A DNA stretch of 64,000 nt from Apoderus coryli (Eukaryota > Arthropoda > Insecta > Coleoptera > Attelabidae): positions 11,762,428-11,826,427 of the forward strand of contig OU452211.1 of NCBI GenBank assembly GCA_911728435.2, read 5' to 3'. Shown piece after piece: positions 7,101 through 57,900 of this stretch. Under the pieces are notes generated by a model, which had not been told where the DNA came from, ran no database searches, and saw only the letters and a list, made by a program, of their open reading frames with translations. Positions within the stretch are counted from its first letter, which is position 1, and every line of letters begins with the position of its first letter. The position numbers were made by a program, and so were the translations under genes.

Positions 7101-9847
7101 ATACCGGTGAATTTGTTTGTCATCTATATTTTTTATCGCCTGAAACATTTGATCAATACGAGGGTTGGCTTTTATATTTCGGGAATAGAGAACAAAAACA
7201 AATATTAATCATCGAAAATCACTTTATTGTTTTTCAAAATATTCCCCATGAAGGTCTATACACTTTTGCATGCGTTTGAACCAATTGTCGAAGCAGTTTT
7301 GCCACTCTGATTGAGGTATCTCCAAAACATGCATTCTGAATGCAGCAACCGCTTCTTCAGGTGTCGAAAAAGACGTCATTGGGTGCCAAGTCAGAACCAT
7401 TCGTCGGATGACTCATCAAATCGATGTTTTAGGTGCTCAAAAATGCAGCTGTTTGAGCCGATGCCTGCTCGCATTGTCGTGGTGAAGAGTGATCCGTCTT
7501 CGGCGATTGGTTTTCTTGATTTCTTGGAAGACAACTGGCAAACAAATAGTTGTATACCACTCAGAATTGACTGTTCTGCGTTGTTCTAGTGGTACAGTTT
7601 CGACATGTTTAGTTTTTCCGAAAAAACAGGCGACCATTTGCTTGGAAGTGCTTCGTACGCGAACAACTTTTGTTGCATTTGGCTCATCTTGAAACACCCA
7701 TACAATCGACTGCTGTTTACTTTCGGGTTCATATGCGTAAATCCACAATACATCACCTGTCATGATGTCATAGACGTGTTTCGAAGCACCGCGATGGTAT
7801 TTTTTGAGCAGTTCTTTCGACCAATCGACACGAGCCTTTTTTTGAGCGATTAACAAATTGTGTGGGATCCAACGCGAACAAATTTTTTTGACAGTCAAAT
7901 ATTTATGCAATATTGAATGTATGCTGGTTCCACTAATGCCTAAGGTTGTCTCAATCTCTTGATAGGTCACATGACGATTTTGCAATATCAGTTCGCGCAC
8001 TGCATCAATGGTTTTCGGAACTGATTTTGAATCTTTTAAGTTACTGTAAACAACACAAATAGCGCTCATATGTCAAAACGTTCTGAGTACGCATAACCTC
8101 AAAAATGTCCAACTTTACGATAGAGCTGTCAGTTGCCAGATTGCAACACCAGGGTTGCCAAATCCCGAAATATAAAAGGCAACCTTCGTATACCACGATT
8201 GTTTGACACAGAATATTAAATAAATTACCAATATGGAAATTTGCATCTTTAATTGAAATATTCGTTACTATTGATGAATATAACAGTAGGAAAATAGGAG
8301 AGTAATGATTTTAAACAACCCAAAAGAAAGTTTGAAGATTATAATATTTAAAATGTCAAGGTTTATATTTAAAAATCTAGGAAGATAGACTACTTTTACC
8401 CTTGTGATCTTCTCTTCTTTTTCCTCTTTTAGAGTTTTATATAACTGATGATCATCATATTGAGCTATGAAAATTCGACCATATTCAACAAAAACGAAAG
8501 CACAGCATAGCTTACACTGAAATTGTTCAAATGTTATTAGCAACAATTTCAACAAAAGTTCTTTAGAAAGTCTTCTACTGTAACCTGCTTTTGCAAACTC
8601 TCAAGTCTGGGAAAAAATCACTTCATTCGAGGGAGTTTGGACATGAGTAGATCTCGTCTGCCTTTCCCAGACTTTGCATACCCCTGCTAATGAGACAGCC
8701 TTTGGAGGTCTTTTAATATTTTTATTTTAATCGAATTTTGTGGTCTTTTTTACTTAGGTGAGGGAAGAGGCAAAGGCGGCGGTGGCGGAGGAGGCGGAGG
8801 AGGCGGTGGCGGTGGAGGTGGTGTTATGATGATGGGTCTGATGATGGGTAAACTCTTAGCCGCCCTAGGTATAGGTGGGGTTGGTCTACTGGCTATGAAA
8901 GCACTTATGGTATCAGCATTAGCACTTATGTTATCCGTCATTATTGGTCTGAAGAAGCTGGTGCATCATGACGATCATGATAGTGGTAAGAACTGTTTTC
9001 TACTAAATGCCGTGCGATCAATTGTAGTTATTTTCCTGCAGATTTGCATTCTTTAAATGAACATCACTATATATATAGTTTGTTGTTGTTTTTTATAAAC
9101 TTTGTTAAAGTTTGAAAGTTAGGAATCGCGCACAAACTGGTATGGGAATATTAGTTATAGGTATACACACAGGGGAAGGAGAAATGCATCGTACGTGTCA
9201 CATAGAACATCAGAGTTAGTCCCAAGAAGTATTTACGATTCTGGCAGGATCTGAACGTTGTATTTCTTTCAGTCAATTAGCCTATCAGGATAACGATCAT
9301 TAAGTTATTCCTTGATCACTGCAGAACAATGAGAAGTTGTTCTATCTTGCTAAAATAAGTTGAGGTGGTCTACAAGATTTTCATCATATTCAACAACTTC
9401 CCGGAAATAAATCTTCACTAAAATATAGTAAACTGTCTATGCTATCAAAAAAAATTCCAATTATCAAGTTTTCTGTCTGTTAATGTAATTGTAACATCTA
9501 ATTTGAATAACTTTACAGAATTATTAAAATATAATAAAAATATTTAGAATTTGAAGATTGACCTAAAAAGTTACGTTTAGTTGTTTTAAGAACCAACCTG
9601 AAGAACTCTAACGATCTATTCAAATAACAGGTTAAAACAAATCGTATCTAAAGATTTGTTAAAAAAAAAAATAGTTAATTGCTATTAGAAAATTATTTAT
9701 TTATTGATGTTATGTTAATTAATCGATTTGGTTTTTGTAGGTCACACGGTAATTCATGCCGGTCATGGTCATGATCACTATCGAAGAAAGAGAAACGCTG
9801 CAGACATGGCCTATCACGCTTGGGAAGAGTTCAAGAAAACACTGTGA
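4197..9847 (+). CDS. Osiris family protein (DUF1676), gene A, three exons
   Basis: Exons: 4197-4560, 8758-8985 and 9741-9847, with GTAAGT/TTAG and GTAAGA/GTAG introns; joining them gives 232 residues. Residues 1-25 are a signal peptide. DGVYLI (56-61) and NYLENHEIRIRLP (84-96) match the DUF1676 start. EGRGK (123-127) is followed by sixteen glycines (128-143). A methionine/alanine/leucine-rich hydrophobic core (144-185) ends in IIGLKKLV. The tail is histidine-rich, with YRRKR and then AADMAY, a variant of the family AQxLAY motif. Osiris proteins are secretory-pathway proteins of cuticle-making epithelia. Odd points: there is no two-cysteine segment after the signal peptide, and intron 1 is 4,197 bp and holds a mariner. 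Possible polyadenylation signals are ATTAAA near 9903 or AATAAA at 10294-10299. I did not assign an ortholog number. Confidence 0.88.
4561..7158. other. First part of Osiris gene A intron 1
   Basis: Intronic, AT-rich DNA between the donor GTAAGT at 4561 and the mariner at 7159. I see no coding exon, RNA gene or clear transposon in it. Confidence 0.5.
7159..8188 (-). mobile_element. Internally deleted mariner transposon, 1,030 bp
   Basis: Bounded by TA (7157-7158 and 8189-8190). Imperfect inverted ends share GGTTG(G/C)CTTTTATATTTCGGGA. The minus-strand ORF (7437-8069, 210 aa) reads TLGISGTSIHSILHKYLTVK (second helix-turn-helix), WSKELLKKYHRGASKHVYDI, TGDVLWIYAYEPESKQQS with the first Asp, TVNSEWYTTICLPVVFQEI and ITLHHDNAS with the second Asp. 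It then shifts frame; the third Asp (LAPND) and tail (FSTPEEAVAAF...HGEYFEKQ) lie in other frames. Compared with a normal mariner of about 1.3 kb, it lacks the first helix-turn-helix and a short block after LAPND. It is non-autonomous and lies in Osiris gene A intron 1, antisense to the gene. Confidence 0.88.
8189..8757. other. Remainder of Osiris gene A intron 1
   Basis: AT-rich intron sequence ending with a pyrimidine-rich tract and TTAG at 8754-8757. The proline-rich minus-strand frame overlapping exon 2 is only the complement of the glycine codon run. Confidence 0.5.
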
Positions 9848-11672: not shown

Positions 11673-12240
11673 CCAGTGTTGGGTCGAATACCTACTGTAT
11701 TTGAATACTTGGATTCATTTAAATTTGAATACTTTTTGAATATTCCAAGTACAAAAAACATATGCCACTTTATGCTTGATTTTTATTTACGTACTTAAGC
11801 TATAAAAATATATAAAAAAAAAACTAAAATACTTGAGTAACAACATTAAAATTAAAAATAACATTTTTGATACATAGTGCCACAGTGCAGTTAGACAAAA
11901 TAATTGTTTAATGAAAAAACATTCAGATTCTTCCATATCTTAACTTGCTCTAAAAACCTAGTCTAGAAAATAAGTTAGATATTGATAAGTTTTCCCATAA
12001 ATTATACCGTTTACGAATCAGAAGGCCTCAAAGTTAAAAAAACTCGATTTTCAACTCATTTTCTTTGTATAGTTATAAAACATGCTACATAATATGAAAC
12101 AAAAATTTGCCACAGCTTCCAAAGTAAAAAAATACGGTATTCGGAATCCAGAATACTGACAAAAAAGTATTCAGTCGAATACTAAATACACAAATGTAGT
12201 CGAATAGTAATGGAATACCAGCCAAATGTATTCTGAATAG
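11673..12240. mobile_element. Possible hAT-like non-autonomous element
   Basis: Begins CAGTGTTGGGTCGAATAC, resembling hAT terminal repeats of the CAGTGTTGG type. It carries many copies of the words GAATACT and GTATTC on both strands toward each end (11690-11750 and 12130-12240). I could not find a clean matching right terminus or 8-bp target duplication, so the boundaries are approximate. Confidence 0.35.
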
Positions 12241-12301
12241 CGCATCTTTTGGGTATTGAGTTCCTCAGTTTTCGAAAATGTTAAATAAATAAAATAAAAT
12301 A

Positions 12302-12312
12302 AATATATATTT
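12302..12312. repeat. Left 11-bp flanking direct repeat of the hammerhead insertion
   Basis: AATATATATTT here is repeated exactly at 12999-13009 on the other side of the inserted block. It probably is the target-site duplication, although its low complexity makes a chance match possible. Confidence 0.55.
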
Positions 12313-12384
12313 AAGAATTGCTTGTTACATAGAGCAACAAGACTTTAAGTTATGTTGGAAATTTATTTCACACTACCATGCTTC

Positions 12385-12426
12385 CACCAGACGGCCGTTT
12401 CGTCGATCCACGACTCATCAGTGGTG
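12385..12426 (-). ncRNA. Hammerhead ribozyme, copy 1
   Basis: Minus strand: stem I CACCA (12422-12426) pairs with TGGTG (12385-12389). The core CTGATGA is at 12415-12421. Stem II GTCG/CGAC closes a 5-nt loop. GAA follows, then stem III ACGG/CCGT with no loop, and C17 (complement of 12390) is the predicted cleavage residue, cut before the TGGTG strand. All catalytic core nucleotides of the family are present. A larger hairpin (12354-12457, arms GTTGGAAATTTA and its complement) extends stem I. Confidence 0.88.
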
Positions 12427-12728
12427 ATCGGCAGGCAGTGTGACCTAAATTTCCAACATTTACAAAGAGCTTATACTAGCACGAGAATTGATTGAGAAAG
12501 AGATGTTTGTGGCGACACCTAGCGTGAACAGGCAATATGCCGGGTGAAACACAGTTCACTACGATGGCCGGACAAGAAGTAACAACTCCATTATATCCTA
12601 TTGCCAACACTAGATGCGCCCGAATCCCCTAGCAGGGAGGCTTTATTAACATCTCTTTCTCAATCAATTCTCGTGCTAGTATAAGCTCTTTGTAAATGTT
12701 GGAAATTTAGGTCACACTGCCTGCCGAT

Positions 12729-12770
12729 CACCACTGATGAGTCGTGGATCGACGAAACGGCCGTCTGGTG
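12729..12770 (+). ncRNA. Hammerhead ribozyme, copy 2
   Basis: Plus strand: stem I CACCA 12729-12733 pairs with TGGTG 12766-12770. Core CTGATGA is at 12734-12740, and stem II GTCG 12741-12744 pairs with CGAC 12750-12753 around TGGAT. GAA is at 12754-12756. Stem III ACGG 12757-12760 with CCGT 12761-12764 is a loopless palindrome, and the predicted cleavage is after C12765. Stem I is prolonged by CACACT/AGTGTG and by a 12-bp helix, GTTGGAAATTTA (12698-12709) with TAAATTTCCAAC (12790-12801). A loopless stem III cannot fold well as one molecule, so pairing of two ribozymes is the likely active form. Confidence 0.9.
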
Positions 12771-12998
12771 GAAGCATGGTAGTGTGAAATAAATTTCCAA
12801 CATAACTTAAAGTCTTGTTGCTCTATGTAACAAGCAATTCTTAAATAAAGCCTCCCTGCTAGGGGATTCGGGCGCATCTAGTGTTGGCAATAGGATATAA
12901 TGGAGTTGTTACTTCTTGTCCGGCCATCGTAGTGAACTGTGTTTCACCCGGCATATTGCCTGTTCACGCTAGGTGTCGCCACAAACATCTCTTTCTCA

Positions 12999-13009
12999 AA
13001 TATATATTT
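12999..13009. repeat. Right 11-bp flanking direct repeat of the hammerhead insertion
   Basis: AATATATATTT, identical to 12302-12312. Confidence 0.55.
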
Positions 13010-13289
13010 GTCAAAAAATTCAAAATAATTTGTAGACAGGTAAACAAAACATATAAAACATAAGAATAATAATTAATACATACAGGTACATCGTCAAATA
13101 AATAAATCAATTAAGATACTTAAAGTAAATTAATTAAGTAAATATTCTAAAGTTCAATATATATACATATATATACAAAACACACAATACTAACTACTAA
13201 CTACTATCCAGTGTGTGAATCGCTCAAAAATTAATGCACATTAAAAAAGTCACCTACTGTATAAAAAGCTTTTTCTAACAAATACGAGC

Positions 13290-19649: not shown

Positions 19650-21885
19650 TATTTTCATTCATCGGGTATGCAATACATTGATAATAATTACGGAAAAATA
19701 TTTCAGACGCCTGGAGATATAGAAGAAAAAATACAATCACAAATAAACAAAGCATTGAAGAGAAAAATACATCAGCATGTACAACCGTATCTTCTAGTAC
19801 AAGGACCAATAAACAAAATTGAAAATAGTTATATCGTAATTGACAAGTTACATTTTCATATACGACATCAGTTTTAAAATATTGTTCAAGTGTTTTTTAT
19901 AATGTATAATAATAAATAACAAATTTCTTTCAATAATACTGCTTTAATCTAATCAACTTCGCAATAGATATAATTATTATTGACTCAATAATAATACACT
20001 ACAAGATATAATTAAATTAAGAAAAGTTAGAAATGGTACCAAACAGCTTAAAGCTTGCATTGAAAGAATGTAATTTCCAAGTAATAAAAGTACCCTTGTA
20101 ACCAATGAAACGCTATTGTTGTATGGACATTCAATCTCATCGTTTGTAATAAAATCGAGATTCAATTTAATTATATGTATGAATTACAATCAAGGAATCA
20201 ATATAATTGAATTGTTTAATGGCATCCAATAATAAGTTTTATTTGAAAAAACAATGTCTTCTTATTATTTTCCAATAATAAGCGTTCGCTTGATTGAAAT
20301 TTAAGTATGTCCGAGGAATACTTAGTATAGCATATCATTGAATGAAATGGTGAATTTTTGAAAACACAATAGTGTTTTTTCCGTGTAGGGATCAGGGACT
20401 GAACTGTCAAAAAATCTCCCCTCTTAAACAAAAATCGACGGGTGGTTTCGGAAAATTTTGATATATTGACCAAATAAAAAATTTCTAATGTTTCTATTCT
20501 GAATTATTTGTTGTTGTGCTGAATATTTATGGATGAATTACACTAAAACACGTATACATAATATTATTAGAGACATATTATGTTGATATCGACAAGTACA
20601 ACAATAAGTAATATTGTTTGACCAGATGTTTAGAATTCAAAAATAGTGAATATTTTTGCAGTTTAATGAGCGAATACGTGATTATATACAAAGAGCTTGG
20701 CGTCACGCGTTTCCACTAGAGGCTCAAATTATTTCTCATAGAGAGGACTATTAGAAAACAAATGAAAAATTCCAAAAAATAGGATATACGGGGGTTGTTT
20801 CAAACAAAATATCAGACCATGTAGGTTATAATGACCGATTTTGGATAGTCTGAATTTATTTGACAAGATTTTACCTAATATTGTGGTACTCATGTATTTG
20901 AAATCCTGAGAAAAATCACCCACTCTGGAAATATCTTTGAAGTAACTGGAGATGGAGATACAACCTCAATAACGAATCAATCTACTATAACATACAGTGG
21001 CAACATTGCTGTAAATTGGTGATTTTATATGAAAAAAACATTCCCTTAAGTCCTTCTCGATATTATTTATTACTAACTAAAAGAAAATCTATTATTAAAA
21101 CATCTAAATCTATTGCTAGAATTCACCTATTAATTGAATTAACGTTAATTTAAGATATTTATTATATTATTGTACACTTTTTCAAGCGATAAAAAGCATT
21201 ATTATCAACTTTGCTATAAATTATTTCTAGTTATTGTTGAGCAAACAATAAGAATCGCCAGGAACTATATTACTATAAACAAGATCCGCAATTTCACTAC
21301 AAAATACAAATAGGTACTTAGTAGTAAAGATGCCAAACACTAATTAGAAAATGGTGTTGGTGTTAATTAAGAACTCGCGGTGAATCGTGAAAATTAAATG
21401 ACAAATGACTTTCAAAATACTAGGATGCAATAATAAATAATTATTATTAAAATCAAAGTTAAGTTTGGCGTAACGACTGTGACTGTAGTGAAATTGACTT
21501 TGTGAAAACAACGTTTTATAAAGAAATTCAATATGGAAATAATTAGATAATTAAAATTGAAAATATGTGAACTATAAATTTTATATACAGTCGACACTGT
21601 TTATAGACCTAGAATATTTTAATGAAATATAATGTAAAAAGCCTTGCATATAGTGAATCTTTAAAATCAATAGCACTCATTTTTTCCGGGCTTTTATGTA
21701 TAAATTTTTATGCATTTATTGAGATCTTGGCCTTTTCGGGATTCCCATTTACATTTTTATATCGCATTCTTTTGAAAATGTTCTTAACGCGTTCATAACT
21801 CCTAATGGTAGGCAATAAAGCAGGTAGATTTCTGTGAGACACCTGGGGAATTCCTAACCCATTTTATAGTCGAGGCCTGGTAAAT
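19650..21885. other. Intergenic AT-rich DNA
   Basis: An open frame at 19668-19877 may be a decayed continuation of the SAM-like gene, because it starts near a TTTCAG (19702-19707), but it shows no known motif. The remainder holds no recognised gene. Confidence 0.3.
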
Positions 21886-23577: not shown

Positions 23578-23806
23578 ACGACTGAAAACAACTACAATCA
23601 TTTCTAAATTATTTACTTTGAAGAAAAACGGGATTTCAAAAACACTATCTTATTTATCAGAACTAAATTCCTCACTAATCGTTTGCGTTTTTTGTTGAAA
23701 TAAAAACTGCAGATACGTGTAGGAAAAGAATTTACACCGTTTATTTTAGTCTTTTCATTGATTCAGTTTGGTTGCTTCTCAAGTTATTTTACTTTTACCG
23801 TACAAA

Positions 23807-24880
23807 ATGATTTATTCCATTCTAGAACGAGTTGAAATTGTTAAACTTTATTTTCAAAATAATAGTAGTGCTAGACTTACGGCTCGCTTATTTAATGAGA
23901 GACATCCCGATAAAAATGTGAATGATGTGTACGTTGGCAAGTTAGTTAAAAAGTTTGTAGATACCGGATCTGTCTGTAATGTAAAACACCAGCCGCAGAA
24001 ACCGATCAGAAATGAAGCTGTGGAAGTCGCTGTTTTAGGGCATGTTGAAATGGATCATAGTCAAAGTACCCGTCAACTAGCTGAAGCCTCAGGTGTCTCC
24101 CGTTCGTCCATAATACGAATTTTAAAAGCGTACAAATTTCATCCGTACAAAATCAAATTAGTACAGGAACTAAATGAGGATGATCCTGATAGAAGGCTGC
24201 AATTTTGTGAAGTAATGAGCCAGCGTTTAATTGAAGATCCGCAATTATTATTTAACATTTGTTTTTCCGACGAATGCACATTTTATTTGAATGGAGCTGT
24301 AAATAGGCACAATTGCCGTTACTGGGATGACAGTAACCCACATTTATTCCGTGAGGTTCATACCCAGTATCCTCAAAAAATAAACGTCTGGTGTGGCATA
24401 TTAGGAAATCATATTATAGGACCACTTTTTATTCCTGGAAATTTAACTAGTGAAGTGTACCTAAACATGCTTGAAGACACAATTGATCCTTTAATAACAC
24501 AAATAATAGAAGATGACCAAAATCATACTGCTGATCGGCTTTATTTCCAGCAAGATGGAGCACCTCCGCACTATGTGGCTCCTGTAAGACAGTTCTTAGA
24601 TGACCGGTTCCCTGGACGGTGGATTGGAAGGAGGGGCCCAATTGAATGGCCTGCCAGGTCACCGGATTTATCGCCTTTAGACTTTTTTCTTTGGGGGCAC
24701 TTAAAAAATAAATGTTTTGCCACGAAGCCCGAGTCCATAGAAGATCTTCGCCAACGCATTACAGAAGAGTGCAGAAACATAACACCTGATATGCTACAAA
24801 ATGTTAGAAATAGATTTGAACAAAATCTGTATTATTGTATGGAATCAAATGGGTCACATTTTCAACATTTGTTAATGTAA
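23807..24880 (+). CDS. DD41D-type Tc1/mariner transposase
   Basis: 357 residues, no frame break. Start chosen at the first ATG (23807, context ACAAAATG); the open frame extends upstream only through a TTG. N-terminal helix-turn-helix: RVEIVKLYFQNNSSARLTAR with GRVN-like linker; a second begins STRQLAEASGVSRSSIIRIL. The catalytic acidic residues are D155 in CFSDECTFY, D250 in FQQDGAPPHY and D292 in RSPDLSPLDFF, with 41 residues between the last two, which places it in the DD41D group rather than DD34D mariner or DD34E Tc1. WGHLKNK and a C-terminal RNRFEQNLYYCM complete the fold. It should cut and paste the element by binding the 342-bp inverted repeats. Confidence 0.93.
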   Translation: MIYSILERVEIVKLYFQNNSSARLTARLFNERHPDKNVNDVYVGKLVKKFVDTGSVCNVKHQPQKPIRNEAVEVAVLGHVEMDHSQSTRQLAEASGVSRSSIIRILKAYKFHPYKIKLVQELNEDDPDRRLQFCEVMSQRLIEDPQLLFNICFSDECTFYLNGAVNRHNCRYWDDSNPHLFREVHTQYPQKINVWCGILGNHIIGPLFIPGNLTSEVYLNMLEDTIDPLITQIIEDDQNHTADRLYFQQDGAPPHYVAPVRQFLDDRFPGRWIGRRGPIEWPARSPDLSPLDFFLWGHLKNKCFATKPESIEDLRQRITEECRNITPDMLQNVRNRFEQNLYYCMESNGSHFQHLLM

Positions 24881-36017: not shown

Positions 36018-36077
36018 ACGAAGAACAACACACTCGTGAGTGTAATATCATACATAAGTTAAATACCTATACCTACA

Positions 36078-36950
36078 ATGGCATCGAAATTTGTAACTTT
36101 ATTGTTATTGTGTGCTGCGGTAAACGCATTACCGACAACACAAGACGAGGCGCGTAGTAATACAATTCAAACCGAAAACGACTTATTAGACAGCATTTAT
36201 AGCGATTGTTTGAGAAAAGATTCGCTATCGTGTCTCAAATATAAGATTTACAACTTTGTCGATAAGTCTTTGGGACAAAAAGATACGATAACGGTGACTG
36301 ACGGTGTCCAAATAATAAAAACAAATAGTGGTGACAGTAAAGATGGAGCGCCGCGTGCTATTAACGGTGATGAATCAATTGAATCGTTATTATTCAATCG
36401 TGTAGCGCGATTTCTTGATACACACACATTTAAAGTTGAACTTAAAGGTAGTGACATTGTGAACGGCATCACCTCAACAGCGCGTAGTTTCAGTGAAATT
36501 GTACAGGAAGAAGAAGAAAATGCACTTGTCGAGGAAAGCAGAGGCAAGAAGAAGAAGCAGTCGAAACTTATGGGACCTCTCATGGCAGCTATCGCTCTCA
36601 AGACAGCCATTCTTGGGAAACTCGCACTTGCAGGAATCGCTTTAATCGCTGGTAAAGCTCTATTGATTGGTAAAATCGCTCTAGTCCTCTCAGCCATTAT
36701 TGGTATCAAAAAGCTTTTGGGCAACTCACAAGGTAAACATGTCACATATGAAGTCGTATCACATCCACAACATTCCTCGAGTCATGTCGCAACCCACGAA
36801 ACGGCTTATGCTGGTGGATCGTCTCATGGCGGTGGATACAGCGCTGATATTGGTGGAGGCGGCTACAGCGCTTCGTCCGGACATGGTGGATGGGGCAGAT
36901 CTTTCGACCCTCAAACGTTAGCTTACAGAGGTCAACCACAACAACAATAG
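36078..36950 (+). CDS. Osiris family protein (DUF1676), gene B, single exon
   Basis: 290 residues in one exon. Signal peptide 1-17 (cleavage near VNA-LP). The family two-cysteine segment is present: C44 and C52 (CX7C). DGVQII (75-80) and RFLDTHTFKVEL (111-122) belong to DUF1676. ESRGKKKK (153-160) is a basic, possibly processed site. Residues 163-213 are an alanine/leucine/isoleucine-rich hydrophobic segment with the family word AGKALL and the end IIGIKKLL. The tail has HVTYEVVSHP, glycine/tyrosine repeats (GGGYSA), GGWGRS and PQTLAY (278-283), the AQxLAY motif with a proline. It is a secreted or membrane-associated epithelial protein by family knowledge. AATAAA lies at 37219-37224. The HVTYEVV tail recalls a specific Osiris subgroup, but I could not fix which. 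Confidence 0.93.
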   Translation: MASKFVTLLLLCAAVNALPTTQDEARSNTIQTENDLLDSIYSDCLRKDSLSCLKYKIYNFVDKSLGQKDTITVTDGVQIIKTNSGDSKDGAPRAINGDESIESLLFNRVARFLDTHTFKVELKGSDIVNGITSTARSFSEIVQEEEENALVEESRGKKKKQSKLMGPLMAAIALKTAILGKLALAGIALIAGKALLIGKIALVLSAIIGIKKLLGNSQGKHVTYEVVSHPQHSSSHVATHETAYAGGSSHGGGYSADIGGGGYSASSGHGGWGRSFDPQTLAYRGQPQQQ

Positions 36951-41516: not shown

Positions 41517-41527
41517 ATAAATCAAGC
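41517..41527. repeat. Left 11-bp target-site duplication of the RTE-like LINE
   Basis: ATAAATCAAGC here is repeated exactly at 43614-43624. Confidence 0.75.
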
Positions 41528-43613
41528 AAATCAAAAAAACCAGAATAAAAAATCAATTAGATACAAGAGAACTCATGAGAAATGAAGATCTTACAAAGAG
41601 ATATGCGGAATCCATCAATAAATACGTGAAAAGTATCAATCAAACTAATGATATTGAAGACATTGTTATTGGAATAAAAGAGTCCATAAAAGCATCAAAC
41701 GAAGAAATCAAACCGAAAATAAGAAAAGGGAAAAAGAAAGAATGGATGACGATAGAGATATTGGATCTGATGGAAGGTCGCAGGAAATATAAAATCCGGG
41801 GAAATCAAGAGAAATATAAGGATACTCACAAGGAAATGAGAAGGAAGATCAAAGAAGCAAAGGAACTATGGGTGGAAGAAAGATGTATTGAAATAGAACA
41901 GTTACAAACAAGAGGTGATTCATTTGGATTGCACAAAAAGGTAAAAGAAATATCACATATATACAGAAAACAACACAAAAGTCGAATACGCAATGATCAA
42001 AATGAGTATATAACATCAGAAGAAAAACTAGCAACGACATGGAAAAAATACGCGGAAAACCTTTTCAATGATATAAGACCACAGCAGCCAGTGCATACGC
42101 TGCACTCTGATAATTTATCGGGCCCCTCTATAATTAAAAGCGAAGTGATATATGCCATCAAGTCAACCAAGATGTACAAAGCCCCAGGACCAGATGACAT
42201 CACCGTAGAAGCAATTAAGTTGTTAGACGAAGAAAATGTAGAAATGCTAGTGAATTTGTTCAATCGCATATATGACACTGGCCACATTCCATCTGATTGG
42301 CTTCCATCAACGTTCGTAATGATCCCAAAGACGACCAACGCCACGAAATGTAAAGACCATCGCCTTATCATCTGCTGAAGGTATTCCTTCGTATTCTACA
42401 CTCTAGAATGTTCAATAAACTAGAAGATCTAAGCGGAGACACACAGTTTGGTTTTAAAAGCGGAATGGGGACTCGTGAAGCCGTTTTCTGCCTGAATACT
42501 TTAGTACAAAACAGCATAGACCAACGAAAAGACGTATATATGCTGTTTATTGATTACGAGAAGGCCTTCGACAATGTTAGACATCACACCTTGTTGAAAC
42601 TTCTGCACAATGCCAATATTGACGCAAAAGATATCAGAATCATCCAAAATCTATACTGGAATCAAAAAGCCTGTGTAAGATTTGAGAAATCACTAACAAC
42701 AGACGAATTTAAAGTTCTAAAGGGGGTTCGACAAGGGTGCATACTGTCACCAATACTATTTAACTTATACGTCGAAAATATATTTTCTGAGGCGCTGGAA
42801 GACTTAGAGTGTGGGATTAAAGTAAATGGTATACCAATTAACAACATACGGTATGCAGACGACACCGTAATCATTGCTGACAGTGAAGAGGACTTACAAC
42901 TAATGCTGGAACAGATAAATGCAGTTGGAAAGGGGAATGGTCTCAAAATAAACATACAAAAGACAAAGTACATGATAGTAAGCAGAAACCCTCCTCAAAA
43001 TGCTGTGTTAAACTTGGAAGACCAACCTATTGAACGAGTGCAAAACTTTAAATACATTGGAACCAACATAAATGAACAATGGAATCCCGAACAGGAAATT
43101 TGCTGTCGGATACAACAAGTGAGGCAAGCTTTCACAAGACTAAGACCCTTTCTTTGCAACCTGACATTGTCCCCCAAATTAAGATGCAGAATGGTGCAGT
43201 GTTACGTCTGGTCCATCCTGTTATATGGAATGGAAACAAGCTTGAGGCTTTTGAAATGTGGTAACACTGCACTGCCACGATATCGTGGGTAGACCGAGTT
43301 CGAAATGAAGACGTTCTTAGAAGGGCGGGATGCGAAAGAGAACTTTTCAACATAATCAAGAATCGGAAAATTGGATACCTGGGCCACATACTACGAGGAG
43401 ATAAGTACAAAATACCACAGATAATTCTCCAAGGAAAAATTGAAGGGAAGAGAGGAGTAGGACGTAAACAGATGTCCTGGTTGAGAAACATCAAGAACTG
43501 GACAGGCATTAGCAATACGGGCGAGCTCTGTCGCGCTGCGGAAGCAAGGACCCTTATTATGTTGAGATAGTCGCCAACGCACTAGAAGTGTACGGCATTT
43601 TAAGAAGAAGAAG
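41528..43613 (+). mobile_element. 5'-truncated RTE-like LINE
   Basis: Flanked by an 11-bp target duplication. ORF pieces: 41575-42378 (linker and RT start, KAPGPDDITVEAIKLL, IPSDWLPSTFVMIPKT) and, after a stop/frame change near 42378, 42408-43292 (DTQFGFKSGMGTREAVFCLN, MLFIDYEKAFDNVRHHTLL, GVRQGCILSPILFNLYVEN, NNIRYADDTVIIAD, KYIGTNINE). The C-terminal part continues in other frames (WVDRVRNEDVLRRAGCEREL, KIGYLGHILRGDKYKIPQI) to about 43570. It ends in an (AAG)n tail. The endonuclease domain is missing by truncation. The RT box YADD is intact; the element is dead through the shifts. Confidence 0.88.
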
Positions 43614-43624: not shown

Positions 43625-44188
43625 GACGTCTACTCCACAAAAATATTTATATATAAATATATATTCAAATCGTGATCGGGACTTGAGTACCAGACATGTT
43701 TCGGAATATGATTCTATCATCAGTGGCTTAATATACATGGTTTCGCAATTTATATAATGATTAAAGTCGAATTGGGCATGGAAATTTAAGCATCTATCTT
43801 TTTACTTTTTCTTAGCTAAAAATACTGCATTGTTTTATTTGATATGTATTGGTTTCTCTACATCTCTATTCTTCCAGTAAATATATCAATATTCTATCGT
43901 GTATGATAGATATAGATAGAATGATGTATTACTTACATGGAAATGTATCTTATCTTATTATATGGAAAGAGCACGAAAACAGAATTTATGAGTTTTGACC
44001 AACAGAATATTAAAAAGCCTTATCGAGTCGATCTCACTCATAAGGTATGCATAGGAATTAAATTAATTATTGTGTAAAAGTAATTAGTTTAATTAAAGCT
44101 AATACGTGTAGAAAATTAGAAAGAAAATTCACTCTCCGTATTAGTTTCATTACAATTAATATTGACGGTGATCGAAATTATAATTATT
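43625..44188. other. Intergenic DNA
   Basis: No gene recognised. The words CATGTTTCGGAATATGATTC and ATCATCAGTGG at 43698-43729 resemble sequences common near repeat ends, without proof. Confidence 0.25.
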
Positions 44189-51958: not shown

Positions 51959-51995
51959 TATAAAAGCAATGTAGTGCAAGTGATTCCATATCAGT
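51959..51995 (+). promoter_or_regulatory. TATA box and initiator of Osiris gene C
   Basis: TATAAAAG at 51959-51966 is followed by the arthropod initiator TCAGT at 51991-51995, a typical TATA to start spacing. The predicted leader is only about 13 bases before the ATG at 52006. A second TATATAAG lies at 51941. Confidence 0.65.
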
Positions 51996-52005
51996 ATCAA
52001 TAAAA

Positions 52006-53148
52006 ATGTTGTTTAAGTGTGTGCTTATCGCTGTTGTAGCTGTAGCTCAACTCGCTTGTGCTCGTTCTGTGATCGATACAAGCCAAAATACAATCAACAC
52101 TGAAGATGAATCAAGTCGAAGTGATGAAACCTATTCGTATTTGGGTGATTTCCGATATATGTATAAGGTATATCAGGAATGTGCTGCACAGGAGCTTACG
52201 TCTTGCTTAAAACTGAAGCTTTTAGCTGCTATGGATAGAGCAGCTAGAGCTTATTCGTTGACATTATTCGATGGAGTTTCTTTTGTGAAGGAAGCTACAA
52301 ACGAAAATCAACCTGCTGCTAGTGAAGCAATTAAGAGTGAAGAGGAGCTTAAAGCTAGTTTACCAAGGGCTTTAAATGATCGTGATACAGCTTTAAATGA
52401 TATGATAACGAAACGCGTTGGGAACTTTTTGGAAAGCCATACATTACAGGTATAACATTTTTAAAGCTCTTGCATGCAAAATTAATTTGTGTTAAATAGT
52501 TCCAAGTTTCTTTTAATTAAACAGTTACATGTGTTTTTTAAAAGTCTTTAATTAATGTAATCGTTAGTATCTTTTAATTAATGTGCAGAAAATCATCATC
52601 ATTTTTGTTATGAATGAAAAACGTTTTCTCTAGACCTATTAAGACATTTTCAGTTGAATTTTCCCTCAAAGCTCATTTATTAAATTGTGTCAAAGATATT
52701 CAAATCAATTTGCCGATAATCCATGATTATTTATAATAAAAATTCTCAATACTCAAAAGCTCCTTATTTTTTCTAGGTCAAACTACCAACAGCTACAGAC
52801 TTAGCAAGGAGCTTCCAAGAAGAAGGTCGTGGCAAGAAGAAGCGAGGTGGTAACGCCATGATGCTTCTTCCTCTCATCCTAGGAGGAACTTTAATACCCC
52901 TAGCTTTAGGAGCTTTAGCTCTTCTGGCTGGTAAAGCTCTAATTGTCTCAAAAATAGCGCTGGTACTTGCCGGTATTATTGGATTGAAAAAACTGCTATC
53001 TGGTCAATCAGGACATCACGAGTCTGGACACGTTGAGGTGGTATCAGGCGGTCATGGTGGTGGATGGGGAAGAAGTTATTATGACAAGGAAGAGGCGCAA
53101 AAGCTCGCGTATCAAGGATATACTAGTACTGCGGAAAAAGACCAATAA
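52006..53148 (+). CDS. Osiris family protein (DUF1676), gene C, two exons
   Basis: Exons 52006-52449 and 52777-53148; the 327-bp intron has donor GTATAA and acceptor TTCTAG, and falls between SHTLQ and VKLP in phase 0. The joined protein has 271 residues. Signal peptide 1-19. Two-cysteine segment C59 and C67 (CX7C). DGVSFV (89-94), SLPRALNDRDTALNDMITKR (118-137) and FLESHTLQVKLP form DUF1676. EEGRGKKKR (163-171) precedes the hydrophobic core 176-222 (LALGALALLAGKALIVSKIA, then LVLAGIIGLKKLL). GGGWGRS and AQKLAY (255-260) close the protein; the AQxLAY motif is perfect. The ALNDRDTALNDM stretch and tail recall Osiris 7 of flies; I offer that only as a tentative match. AATAAA lies at 53460-53465. 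Role by family: secretory-pathway protein of cuticle-forming epithelium. Confidence 0.93.
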
Positions 53149-54994: not shown

Positions 54995-57900
54995 CATCAT
55001 CATCATCATCACTCAGCTATAGTAGTCCACTGCTGAACATAAGCCTCTCGTTTATTTTGCCACTCTTCTCTATCTTGAGCCATTTGTATCCAATTACCAC
55101 AGATTCTTTTGATGTCATCAGTCCATCGTGTGGGGGGGCGCCCTCTACTACGATAAGCTTCGTGCCTCGGGCGCCACTCCAATAGTTTTTTAGACCATCT
55201 TCCGTCAGTTCTTCTAGCTACGTTGCCGGCCCAGTTCCACTTTAAAGTTGTTATTTTTTCGATTACATCTATAACACCTGTTCTTTGGCGAATAATCTCG
55301 TTTGGTATTCGGTCTCTGAGGGAAATACCCAGAATAGCCCTCTCCATCGCCCGTTGGGTGACACGCAGTTTCTTTGCTGACTTTTTTGTAAGCGTCAATG
55401 TTTCGGCTCCGTATGTCATCACTGGTAATACGCACTGATTGTATACTTTTCGTTTTAGACTGATGGGAATATCCGACTTGAAAACATACTTTAATCTTCC
55501 AAAAGATGTCCACCCCAAGCCTACTCTCCGGAGAAGTTCGCACGTCTGGTTGTCCCGTCCTATTCGGATCTCATGACCCAAATATTTGTAGGCGGTGACC
55601 TGTTCAATAGATTTGCTTCCAACAGTTATGTTTTCACTGGGGACTAGGTTTGTCATGACTTGCGTCTTTGCAAAGTTAATTCTTAGGCCAACTTCCCTTG
55701 AAGCATTGTATAATTTTTCCAACATCATGGACGCTTGATCTATACGGTCGGTGATAAGGACGATATCGTCTGCAAATCTTAAGTTATTTAATCTTTCACC
55801 GTCTATATTTAGGCCCATTTCCCCCCATTCGATTTTCTTACAGGCATATTCGAGCAGTGTGGTGAACAGCTTTGGAGAGAGGGTATCTCCTTGACGTACA
55901 CCTTGTTCTATTCGGAATGTTCTTGTGTTTTTATGTAATCTTACACACGCCGTTGCTTTCTCATATATACCCTTAATCAGTGCAATGTACCTGTAATCAA
56001 TTCTGCAGTCTGTTAATGATTTGAGCATATGTTGTTGGCTGATTGAGTCAAAAGCTTTTTCATAGTCTACGAAAACAAGGATGAGAGGTTTATTATATTC
56101 TGTTGATTTTTCTATAAGGGTCTTGATTGTATGTAAATGATCATTTGTACCGTACCCTGCTCGAAATCCTGCCTGTTCTTTCGGCTGGTAAAAATCTAAT
56201 TTTGGAGTTGGGCGTTTGACAATGATCTTCATAAATAGTTTATACAAGTGGGATATGAGACTAATGGGTCTGTAATTTGCTAGATTACCAATGTTCCCCT
56301 TCTTGTGCATTATTACTATAGTGGCGTTGTTCCACTTTGAAGGTGTCACTCCTTGATGTAGACATTCATTAAATAATTTACATAGGGCTTTAATAACTAT
56401 GTGTCCACCTTCCTTTACTGCCTCTATAACAATTTCGTCTTCTCCTGGTGACTTATTATTCTTCATCTCAGACACCGCCTTTCTTACTTCACAGTAGGTT
56501 ATGTCTGGTACATCTTCAGAGCCCTGGTTCAGTATTCTTGGGATAGGTACCTCTTCTTCATCTGGTTTTCTATAAAGTTCTTCATAGAAGTCTTCGACAA
56601 TTTTTACAATTTCATCCTTGTTGGTAGTCACTTGCCCTGCCTTATTTTCTAGTTTGCAGATGTTGTGTTTTCCCACTTTTAAATTTCTACGTAAAACTTT
56701 AAGACTCTTGTTGTTTTCAATCACTGTATTTATCTTCTCTGTATTAAATTTTCTGGTATCTTTTCTTATAGCCTTTGATATTTCTTTATTTAGTTGTCTT
56801 AGTTCCTCGTTGTTTGTGGTGTATTTGTTCTTTAGTTCTCTTCTTTTCGTTAGTAGCTGTTTTGTGCCTCTAGACAGTTTTTCTTCTTTTTCTCTTCTCT
56901 TTGGTTCATATCTTTTACGTGTCTCTTGCAATGCTGTACATATTTTTTCATTTAAGTTCTCAACGTCGGTTCCCAGATTTTCAATACCGTCTAAGTCATT
57001 TTTTAGAGCCTCTCTGTATTCATCGGAGTTATCTATGGGATTCCATCCTAGGTTTCGTACTTTCGATAACAGCTTAGATCTTTCTCTCTTTATATTGATT
57101 TCTATTATTGCTCTTACCATTCTGTGATCACTACCAATTGAGATACTATTAAGAACCTGGACGTCATGCACTATATGCTTGTTATCCGAGGCGATGTAAT
57201 CTATCTCGTTCTTGGTAGTACCGTCCGGGCTTGCCCAAGTCCATTTTCTATTTGGCTTTTTCTTGAAAAAGGAGTTCATCGCAAATAGGTTGTGCTGCAA
57301 TAAATAGTCTAAAAGCATAGTTCCTCTATCGTTTCTGTTACCGAATCCAAACGACCCCATCGCTGTTTCGTTGTCGTCTGCCTTATGTCCTAATTTGGCA
57401 TTGAAATCACCGATAATAAAAGTAAAGTGCGTGCGAACCTTTTCTATTGCTTTGGTGATGTCTTCATAAAAGTTCTCTATTTCGTCTTCACTATGCGTGG
57501 ATGTTGGAGCATAGACTTGTATTATTTTAAGACTGTATCGATCGTTCAGTTTTAGTACCATAAATGCGACTCTCAGGCTAACATATTCAAACTGCACTAT
57601 GCTATCTTTATGTCACTTGTGAACTAAAAAGCCTACGCCTCCTTCCGACATATTTTCATCGCCTTTGTAGTACAGCACATTTCCAGACTGCAGTGTCAAC
57701 TCTGCTTCACCTTTTCTTCTTGTCTCGCACAGGCCCAGAATATCCCACTTTATATGAGAAAGTTCATTTTCTAGTTCCAGTATTTTCTGATCCGATCCAA
57801 GTGTTCTAGTGTTGTAAGTGGCTATTAGCAATTTTCGTCTACTGTGGTAGCCTGATCTACTCCGGGTATTCTTCGCACCCTCTGCATTCTGTCTTGTCCG

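Follow-up and report, generated by a model that had tools for sequence, protein, structure and literature searches.

A head-to-head, full-lap insertion of a 336-nucleotide hammerhead unit in beetle DNA, best read as a retrozyme-type element

Two identical hammerhead ribozyme motifs stand on opposite strands of one short block of DNA, and the question that they raise is what kind of element carries them and how it came to be inserted in this form. The block lies in the window, by which we mean the whole stretch of 64,000 nucleotides that was analysed. The locus is real and beyond chance, and the reading that suits it best is a beetle element of the retrozyme type. Its ribozyme motif and its unit are ordinary for retrozymes; the unusual part is the insertion, in which full laps of the unit stand head to head, a departure from the tandem arrays described in the published excerpts. 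Papers given by PMC number are cited throughout from excerpts of their text.

The surroundings had been called beetle-like in the earlier note, which was made from the letters alone, and this is borne out by the open reading frame at 36063-36950, a homologue of Osiris 7. Among the best 120 of 646 matches to this frame, the best named one comes from the longhorn beetle Rhamnusium bicolor (74% identity), the top match overall has 69% identity, and many beetles rank above the first lacewing and flies. Since the Osiris 7 gene shares the window with the insertion, we take the host to be a beetle. DUF1676 (Osiris-type) genes or pieces of them occur in the window (Table 1), and the insertion is therefore placed within or beside beetle Osiris genes. 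Several reverse transcriptase matches were also found in the window. A stop-free stretch of 867 aa (55009-57612, minus strand) with endonuclease and reverse transcriptase matches represents a LINE, possibly a young copy. At 41521-43292 (plus strand), two stop-free stretches overlap; the second strongly matches reverse transcriptase, the first has no Pfam match, and together they perhaps represent a frame-broken LINE. A stop-free stretch of 372 aa (23762-24880, plus strand) resembles a transposase gene, with a DUF4817 match and sub-cut-off matches to DDE_3 and HTH.

Hammerhead motifs and the unit that carries them

The earlier note had described two complete type I hammerheads, identical and on opposite strands, and both were located (Table 1). 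Their core reads CACCA-CTGATGA-GTCG-TGGAT-CGAC-GAA-AC-GGCC-GT-C-TGGTG. A strict descriptor (CTGANGA, 4-bp stem II, GAAA, 2-bp stem III, NTH and 5-bp stem I) matched at 2 places in the window and at 0 in 100 dinucleotide-preserving shuffles of it. In a covariance search, Rfam model RF00163 (Hammerhead_1) gave 32.3 bits per copy with the full model length matched, corresponding to E-values of 5.7e-6 in a 901-base stretch and 4e-4 across the whole window. This score falls 1.7 bits short of the gathering score of 34 in both copies, and for this reason a default Rfam scan lists neither. A sub-threshold covariance score with a mispaired core is what the earlier note had named as counting against the motif. 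The score is indeed slightly below the threshold, but the mispairing is absent: the RF00163 alignment of the core contains 0 non-standard pairs and shows the conserved core, three helices (stem I open) and the cleavage triplet. Matches to RF00163 are confined to the sense strand of each arm of the insertion, and the predicted cleavage position on the plus strand agrees with the cut after C12765 that had been proposed.

A looser hammerhead pattern picked out a third place, at 43699 (0.20 expected by chance). A further hammerhead near this position was rejected, as the strict descriptor misses it and no Rfam match appears there up to E 1. A weak RAGATH-25 match at 20271-20314 (plus strand), with 21.2 bits where the gathering score is 49 and an E-value of 0.99, is probably due to chance.

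Stem I is extended, as had been noted, but not by helices of 12 and 6 bp: the predicted helices measure 3, 10 and 14 bp beyond the inner 6, so that the extension is longer than stated. Stem III has only 2 bp and a GGCC loop, and the eight letters of stem and loop together, ACGGCCGT, are self-complementary. A 2-bp stem III with a tetraloop is described as similar to invertebrate hammerheads (PMC7229834).

The hammerhead is a predicted motif, and on free energy alone the core prefers another fold. For the 44-nt core, the enforced hammerhead has a modelled energy of −6.9 kcal/mol compared with a minimum of −16.1 kcal/mol, a gap of 9.2; in the 108-nt region with extended stem I, the enforced hammerhead (−46.4 kcal/mol) lies 8.7 above the minimum fold (−55.1 kcal/mol), which buries the core. 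The minimum fold of the 336-nt circle likewise buries the core, paired in the same alternative way, whereas in most metazoan retrozyme circles the hammerhead is reported to remain able to form (PMC7229834). These energy models ignore tertiary contacts between loop 1 and loop 2. Axolotl retrozyme hammerheads are reported to cut better as dimers (PMC7229834). A two-strand model of the 44-nt core gave −39.7 kcal/mol, as against −16.1 kcal/mol for the single strand, and its product is a long duplex and not a paired hammerhead, so that this energy has no bearing on dimeric activity. The structure of the insertion, set out below, is independent of these fold results on activity.

The unit measures 336 nt with 44.3% GC, and both arms of the insertion fit a 336-nt circle exactly, in keeping with the size first suggested. 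Circle coordinates are given here with position 1 at window position 12648, which puts the ribozyme cut site at circle 118. The circular fold of the unit has a z of −5.7. The unit is non-coding, with 4 to 11 stops in each of the six circular frames; an open reading frame combining reverse transcriptase and GIY-YIG is absent from the unit itself, which has no stop-free frame. An AATAAA at window 12844-12849 (plus strand) corresponds to circle 197-202, the exact start and end of the lap of the minus arm, and a second AATAAA lies at circle 141. A pol III SINE was considered and rejected, box A- and box B-like matches being absent by simple patterns. Searching with blastn revealed no second copy of the unit in the rest of the window (best other match E 1.1), and the unit pattern gave 0 exact matches in viral contigs and 0 in prokaryote genome contigs, neither collection being expected to contain beetle DNA.

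Architecture of the insertion

The block between the two AAATATATATTT repeats consists of unit sequence only: two circularly permuted copies, head to head and abutting. That the locus is an insertion is thus upheld, the unit block being flanked by 12-bp direct repeats. The interval first given for it, 12385..12770, holds the ribozymes but not the whole element, as the unit sequence occupies 12308-12999 and the outer edges of the repeats lie at 12301 and 13009. The informative feature, absent from the earlier note, is the presence of permuted full laps, head to head, within one 12-bp duplication.

Table 1. Coordinates of features of the insertion and of Osiris-type genes in the window
Feature	Position	Strand	Details
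DUF1676 (Osiris-type) genes or pieces	36063-36950, 51964-53148, 8694-9056		Pfam match
Left copy of 12-bp target-site duplication AAATATATATTT	12301..12312		Last 5 bases (12308-12312) also fit unit
Minus arm	12308..12647	−	One lap + 4 nt, circle 197 -> 336 -> 1 -> 200; duplication trimmed: 12313-12647
Type I hammerhead ribozyme motif	12384-12427	−	RF00163 32.3 bits; predicted cut after C12390
Head-to-head junction	12647..12648		No spacer; circle 197 against 1; no hairpin-type symmetry
Plus arm	12648..12999	+	One lap + 16 nt, circle 1 -> 336 -> 16; duplication trimmed: ends 12997
16-nt direct repeat at the two ends of the plus arm	12648..12663, other copy 12984-12999	+	Lap overrun; spacing 336
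Hammerhead motif with extended stem I	12696..12803	+	108-nt region: −55.1 kcal/mol, z −8.5; hammerhead-enforced −46.4
Type I hammerhead ribozyme motif	12728-12771	+	RF00163 32.3 bits; predicted cut after C12765
Right copy of 12-bp target-site duplication AAATATATATTT	12998..13009		First 2 bases also fit unit

The minus arm (340 nt) and the plus arm (352 nt) show 0 mismatches to one 336-nt circle. From this identity it would seem that either the insertion happened recently or some process has preserved the match between the arms. Trimmed of the duplicated target letters, the plus arm measures 350 nt (one lap +14) and the minus arm 335 nt (one lap −1). In a test framed post hoc, random arm lengths came as close to whole laps in 0.15% of trials, and both fell within 16 nt of them in 1.0%. 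Neither arm starts or stops at the cut site at circle 118, and both cross it. A self-cleaved linear monomer therefore cannot be the template, and this candidate was rejected.

The cDNA starts fall at circle 14-16 and 195-200. Ranked by accessibility in the predicted circle, position 14 is equalled or exceeded by a fraction of 0.024 of positions, position 16 by 0.006, position 195 by 0.065 and position 200 by 0.113; these statistics, like those on laps, were devised post hoc. Both start sites are predicted to lie in long unpaired stretches of the circle. The AAATATATATTT repeat is of low complexity and palindromic. Among 1500 random AT-rich point pairs, allowed a slide of 7 nt on each side, an anchored repeat of at least 12 bp arose in a fraction of 0.002.

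Possible origins of the insertion

We think it probable that the locus is a single insertion of a non-coding animal non-LTR retrozyme, in which the two 3' ends of a staggered break each primed one lap of reverse transcription on circular RNA. What is observed is two permuted laps, head to head, between 12-bp repeats, and from these we infer the following steps. Head-to-tail source copies elsewhere, of the sort described for such families in the literature rather than in this genome, would have yielded transcripts that the hammerhead cut and that then closed into circles. An endonuclease and reverse transcriptase acting in trans, from a Penelope-like element or a LINE, would then have cut AAATATATATTT with a stagger of 12 nt; because the target site is palindromic, each of the two resulting 3' overhangs would end in ATATTT-3'. 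The left overhang may have annealed by 5 nt at circle 196-200 and the right by 2 nt at 15-16, in each case in unpaired stretches of circular RNA. Each would have been extended once round its circle, the reverse transcriptase halting soon after its own start on meeting its own primer, and the joining of the two cDNA 3' ends would have given the head-to-head arrangement of full laps. A separate circle for each overhang would fit better than a shared one, because two reverse transcriptases on a single circle would run into each other's cDNA after about 150-180 nt, about halfway round.

It is possible, and we put it forward tentatively, that retrozyme circles are inserted two-sidedly in a more specific sense: a dimeric enzyme would cut both strands, each overhang would prime on its own circle for one lap, and the products would be sealed head to head, while the self-complementary stem III (ACGGCCGU) could hold the two circles together. 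Among the points that weigh against the favoured reading are that one locus only is known, that the minimum fold of the circle buries the core and that the Rfam score lies just under the gathering score.

With regard to the enzyme, the authors of the retrozyme work rate Penelope-like elements a strong candidate (PMC7229834), and in vitro a purified Penelope-like protein, from the green anole, acted on both strands of AT-rich targets, cutting and extending them (PMC11167929). In the anole system synthesis on the two strands begins at identical RNA sites (PMC11167929), whereas the starts observed here lie 181-184 nt apart. A GIY-YIG (Penelope-like) match was found in none of the 19 distinct open reading frames scanned, of 32 listed in the window. 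Opposite priming is also proposed for human L1, where 5' inversions ascribed to priming from both strands make up 18-22% of insertions and target-site duplications have a median of 13 bp; twin priming is rare in Alu copies mobilised by L1 (0.02% of germline copies) (PMC12016303).

The alternative that survives best keeps the same retrozyme and replaces the circle with an uncut, linear multimeric transcript on which both overhangs primed, so that arms of one lap would be coincidental. In its favour, a Penelope reverse transcriptase accepted unprocessed RNA in vitro and initiated within it (PMC11167929), and multimeric retrozyme RNAs exist in axolotl (PMC7229834), but coincidence would have to bring the arms to −1 and +14 nt from an exact lap, as close as random lengths came only in the 0.15% of trials given above, and we regard this reading as unlikely.

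Twin priming on circular RNA may also be compared with the movement of a fixed inverted-repeat element, a head-to-head dimer moving as such, for example in a MITE-like manner, or with a snap-back copy. Inverted arms with a target-site duplication would be expected of such an element, and the outermost 17 nt form inverted repeats that match at 94%; this last feature arises mostly because the target site is palindromic, as 12 of these positions belong to it and 4/5 of the remainder match. In the case of snap-back copying, the inverted repeats of Penelope elements are ascribed by their authors to self-priming at palindromes (PMC3846280). Against both forms, the arms meet with a phase difference of 140 nt, so that the junction has no hairpin symmetry: complementarity across it is 3/5, 5/10 and 7/20, and the longest perfect hairpin arm nearby is 6 nt. 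Snap-back (self-primed) copying yields mirror-image arms, unlike those seen, and was rejected for lack of mirror symmetry at the junction. We consider a fixed or snap-back origin very unlikely.

Just as improbable, in our view, is that a host retroelement captured by chance a viroid-like circular RNA of exogenous origin, whether from the beetle or from its food, with no resident family behind it. Zeta-like viroid-like circles have a stop-free circular frame and ribozymes on both polarities. Neither feature is seen here, as stops (4 to 11) occur in every circular frame and the hammerhead lies on the sense strand only, and on these grounds we rejected a viroid-like agent of the kind that has endless frames or a ribozyme in each polarity. 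A capture would be compatible with the single locus seen and with the nature of the unit, a small, highly structured circle that carries a hammerhead, and the 0 exact pattern matches in viral or prokaryote contigs are neutral as to origin; type I hammerheads in 170-400 nt units are, however, reported as resident repeats in many animals, including insects (PMC7229834).

Least probable of all is an end-joining of two DNA monomer circles or of two separate insertions, or an assembly chimera: staggered opening and fill-in of DNA circles would also give short terminal repeats such as those of 4 and 16 nt, but the locus has a single flanking 12-bp duplication and an exact abutment, and no mirrored host flank was found in 12200-13100; in a missed-adapter chimera the flanks would be mirrored as well.

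Relation to known elements and meaning of the locus

Metazoan non-LTR retrozymes, as described in the excerpts of Cervera and de la Pena 2020 (PMC7229834), have a type I hammerhead with a 2-bp stem III and a tetraloop, a non-coding unit of about 170-400 nt with low GC (under 50%), strong self-pairing and a target-site duplication of more than 4 bp when present. The beetle element is alike in each of these respects, its unit being 336 nt and its duplication 12 bp. It differs in arrangement, since metazoan retrozymes are tandem and head to tail, and the beetle copy consists of two permuted full laps head to head with one ribozyme per strand, in which the direct overlap amounts to only 4 and 16 nt. 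The assignment to the animal-retrozyme kind made in the earlier note is thus sustained for the unit and not for a head-to-tail array. No inverted retrozyme pair is described in the excerpts of open-access literature examined, nor in the Penelope and pLTR passages of PMC8969392, and the words 'inverted' and 'opposite' are absent from the text of PMC7229834.

Penelope-like elements with inverted pLTRs offer the closest parallels in some respects (PMC3846280, PMC11167929). Rotifer insertions carry inverted pLTRs, most often head to head, with duplications of 8-10 bp in several copies and without duplication in some (PMC3846280), and Penelope-like elements share AT-rich targets, cutting and extension of both strands in vitro and associated hammerheads. 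The beetle insertion differs from them in having no open reading frame, no junction palindrome, full laps of a short unit and separate start sites for each strand. Twin-primed 5' inversions of L1 (PMC12016303) are alike in that two opposite cDNAs lie in one insertion with a target-site duplication of comparable length, but overlapping L1 cDNAs share a short stretch (median 12 bp) of linear RNA, whereas the beetle cDNAs each hold a complete unit; the beetle insertion is also without poly(A).

Hammerheads within repeats of a few hundred base pairs are likewise found in amphibian satellites, with a weak stem III and dimeric activity in amphibians (PMC7229834), and in cave-cricket pDo500 (PMC2837043). 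These are satellite repeats, in contrast with the one inverted pair of the beetle. A plant LTR retrozyme has type III hammerheads, direct repeats of about 350 bp and a 4-bp duplication, whereas the beetle element has type I hammerheads, a 12-bp duplication and no long direct repeat.

The excerpts examined leave three questions about animal retrozymes: by what route they re-enter the genome, whether the circle serves as template and which reverse transcriptase is responsible. In the 2020 retrozyme paper, primed circles are proposed to yield tandem cDNA copies (PMC7229834). Full-lap arms that are permuted off the cut site are hard to derive from a linear monomer. The reading also offers a genome-wide test, as the arms of other such insertions would be expected to measure close to a whole number of laps and to begin where the circle is unpaired. 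With one sense hammerhead per strand, a transcript of the locus should not release unit-length RNA by itself; the RNA would fold into a long hairpin of the unit instead, and may be a source of small RNAs against the family. Should the two-sided reaction put forward tentatively above be correct, circular templates would leave in genomes insertions of this kind, by which they could be recognised.
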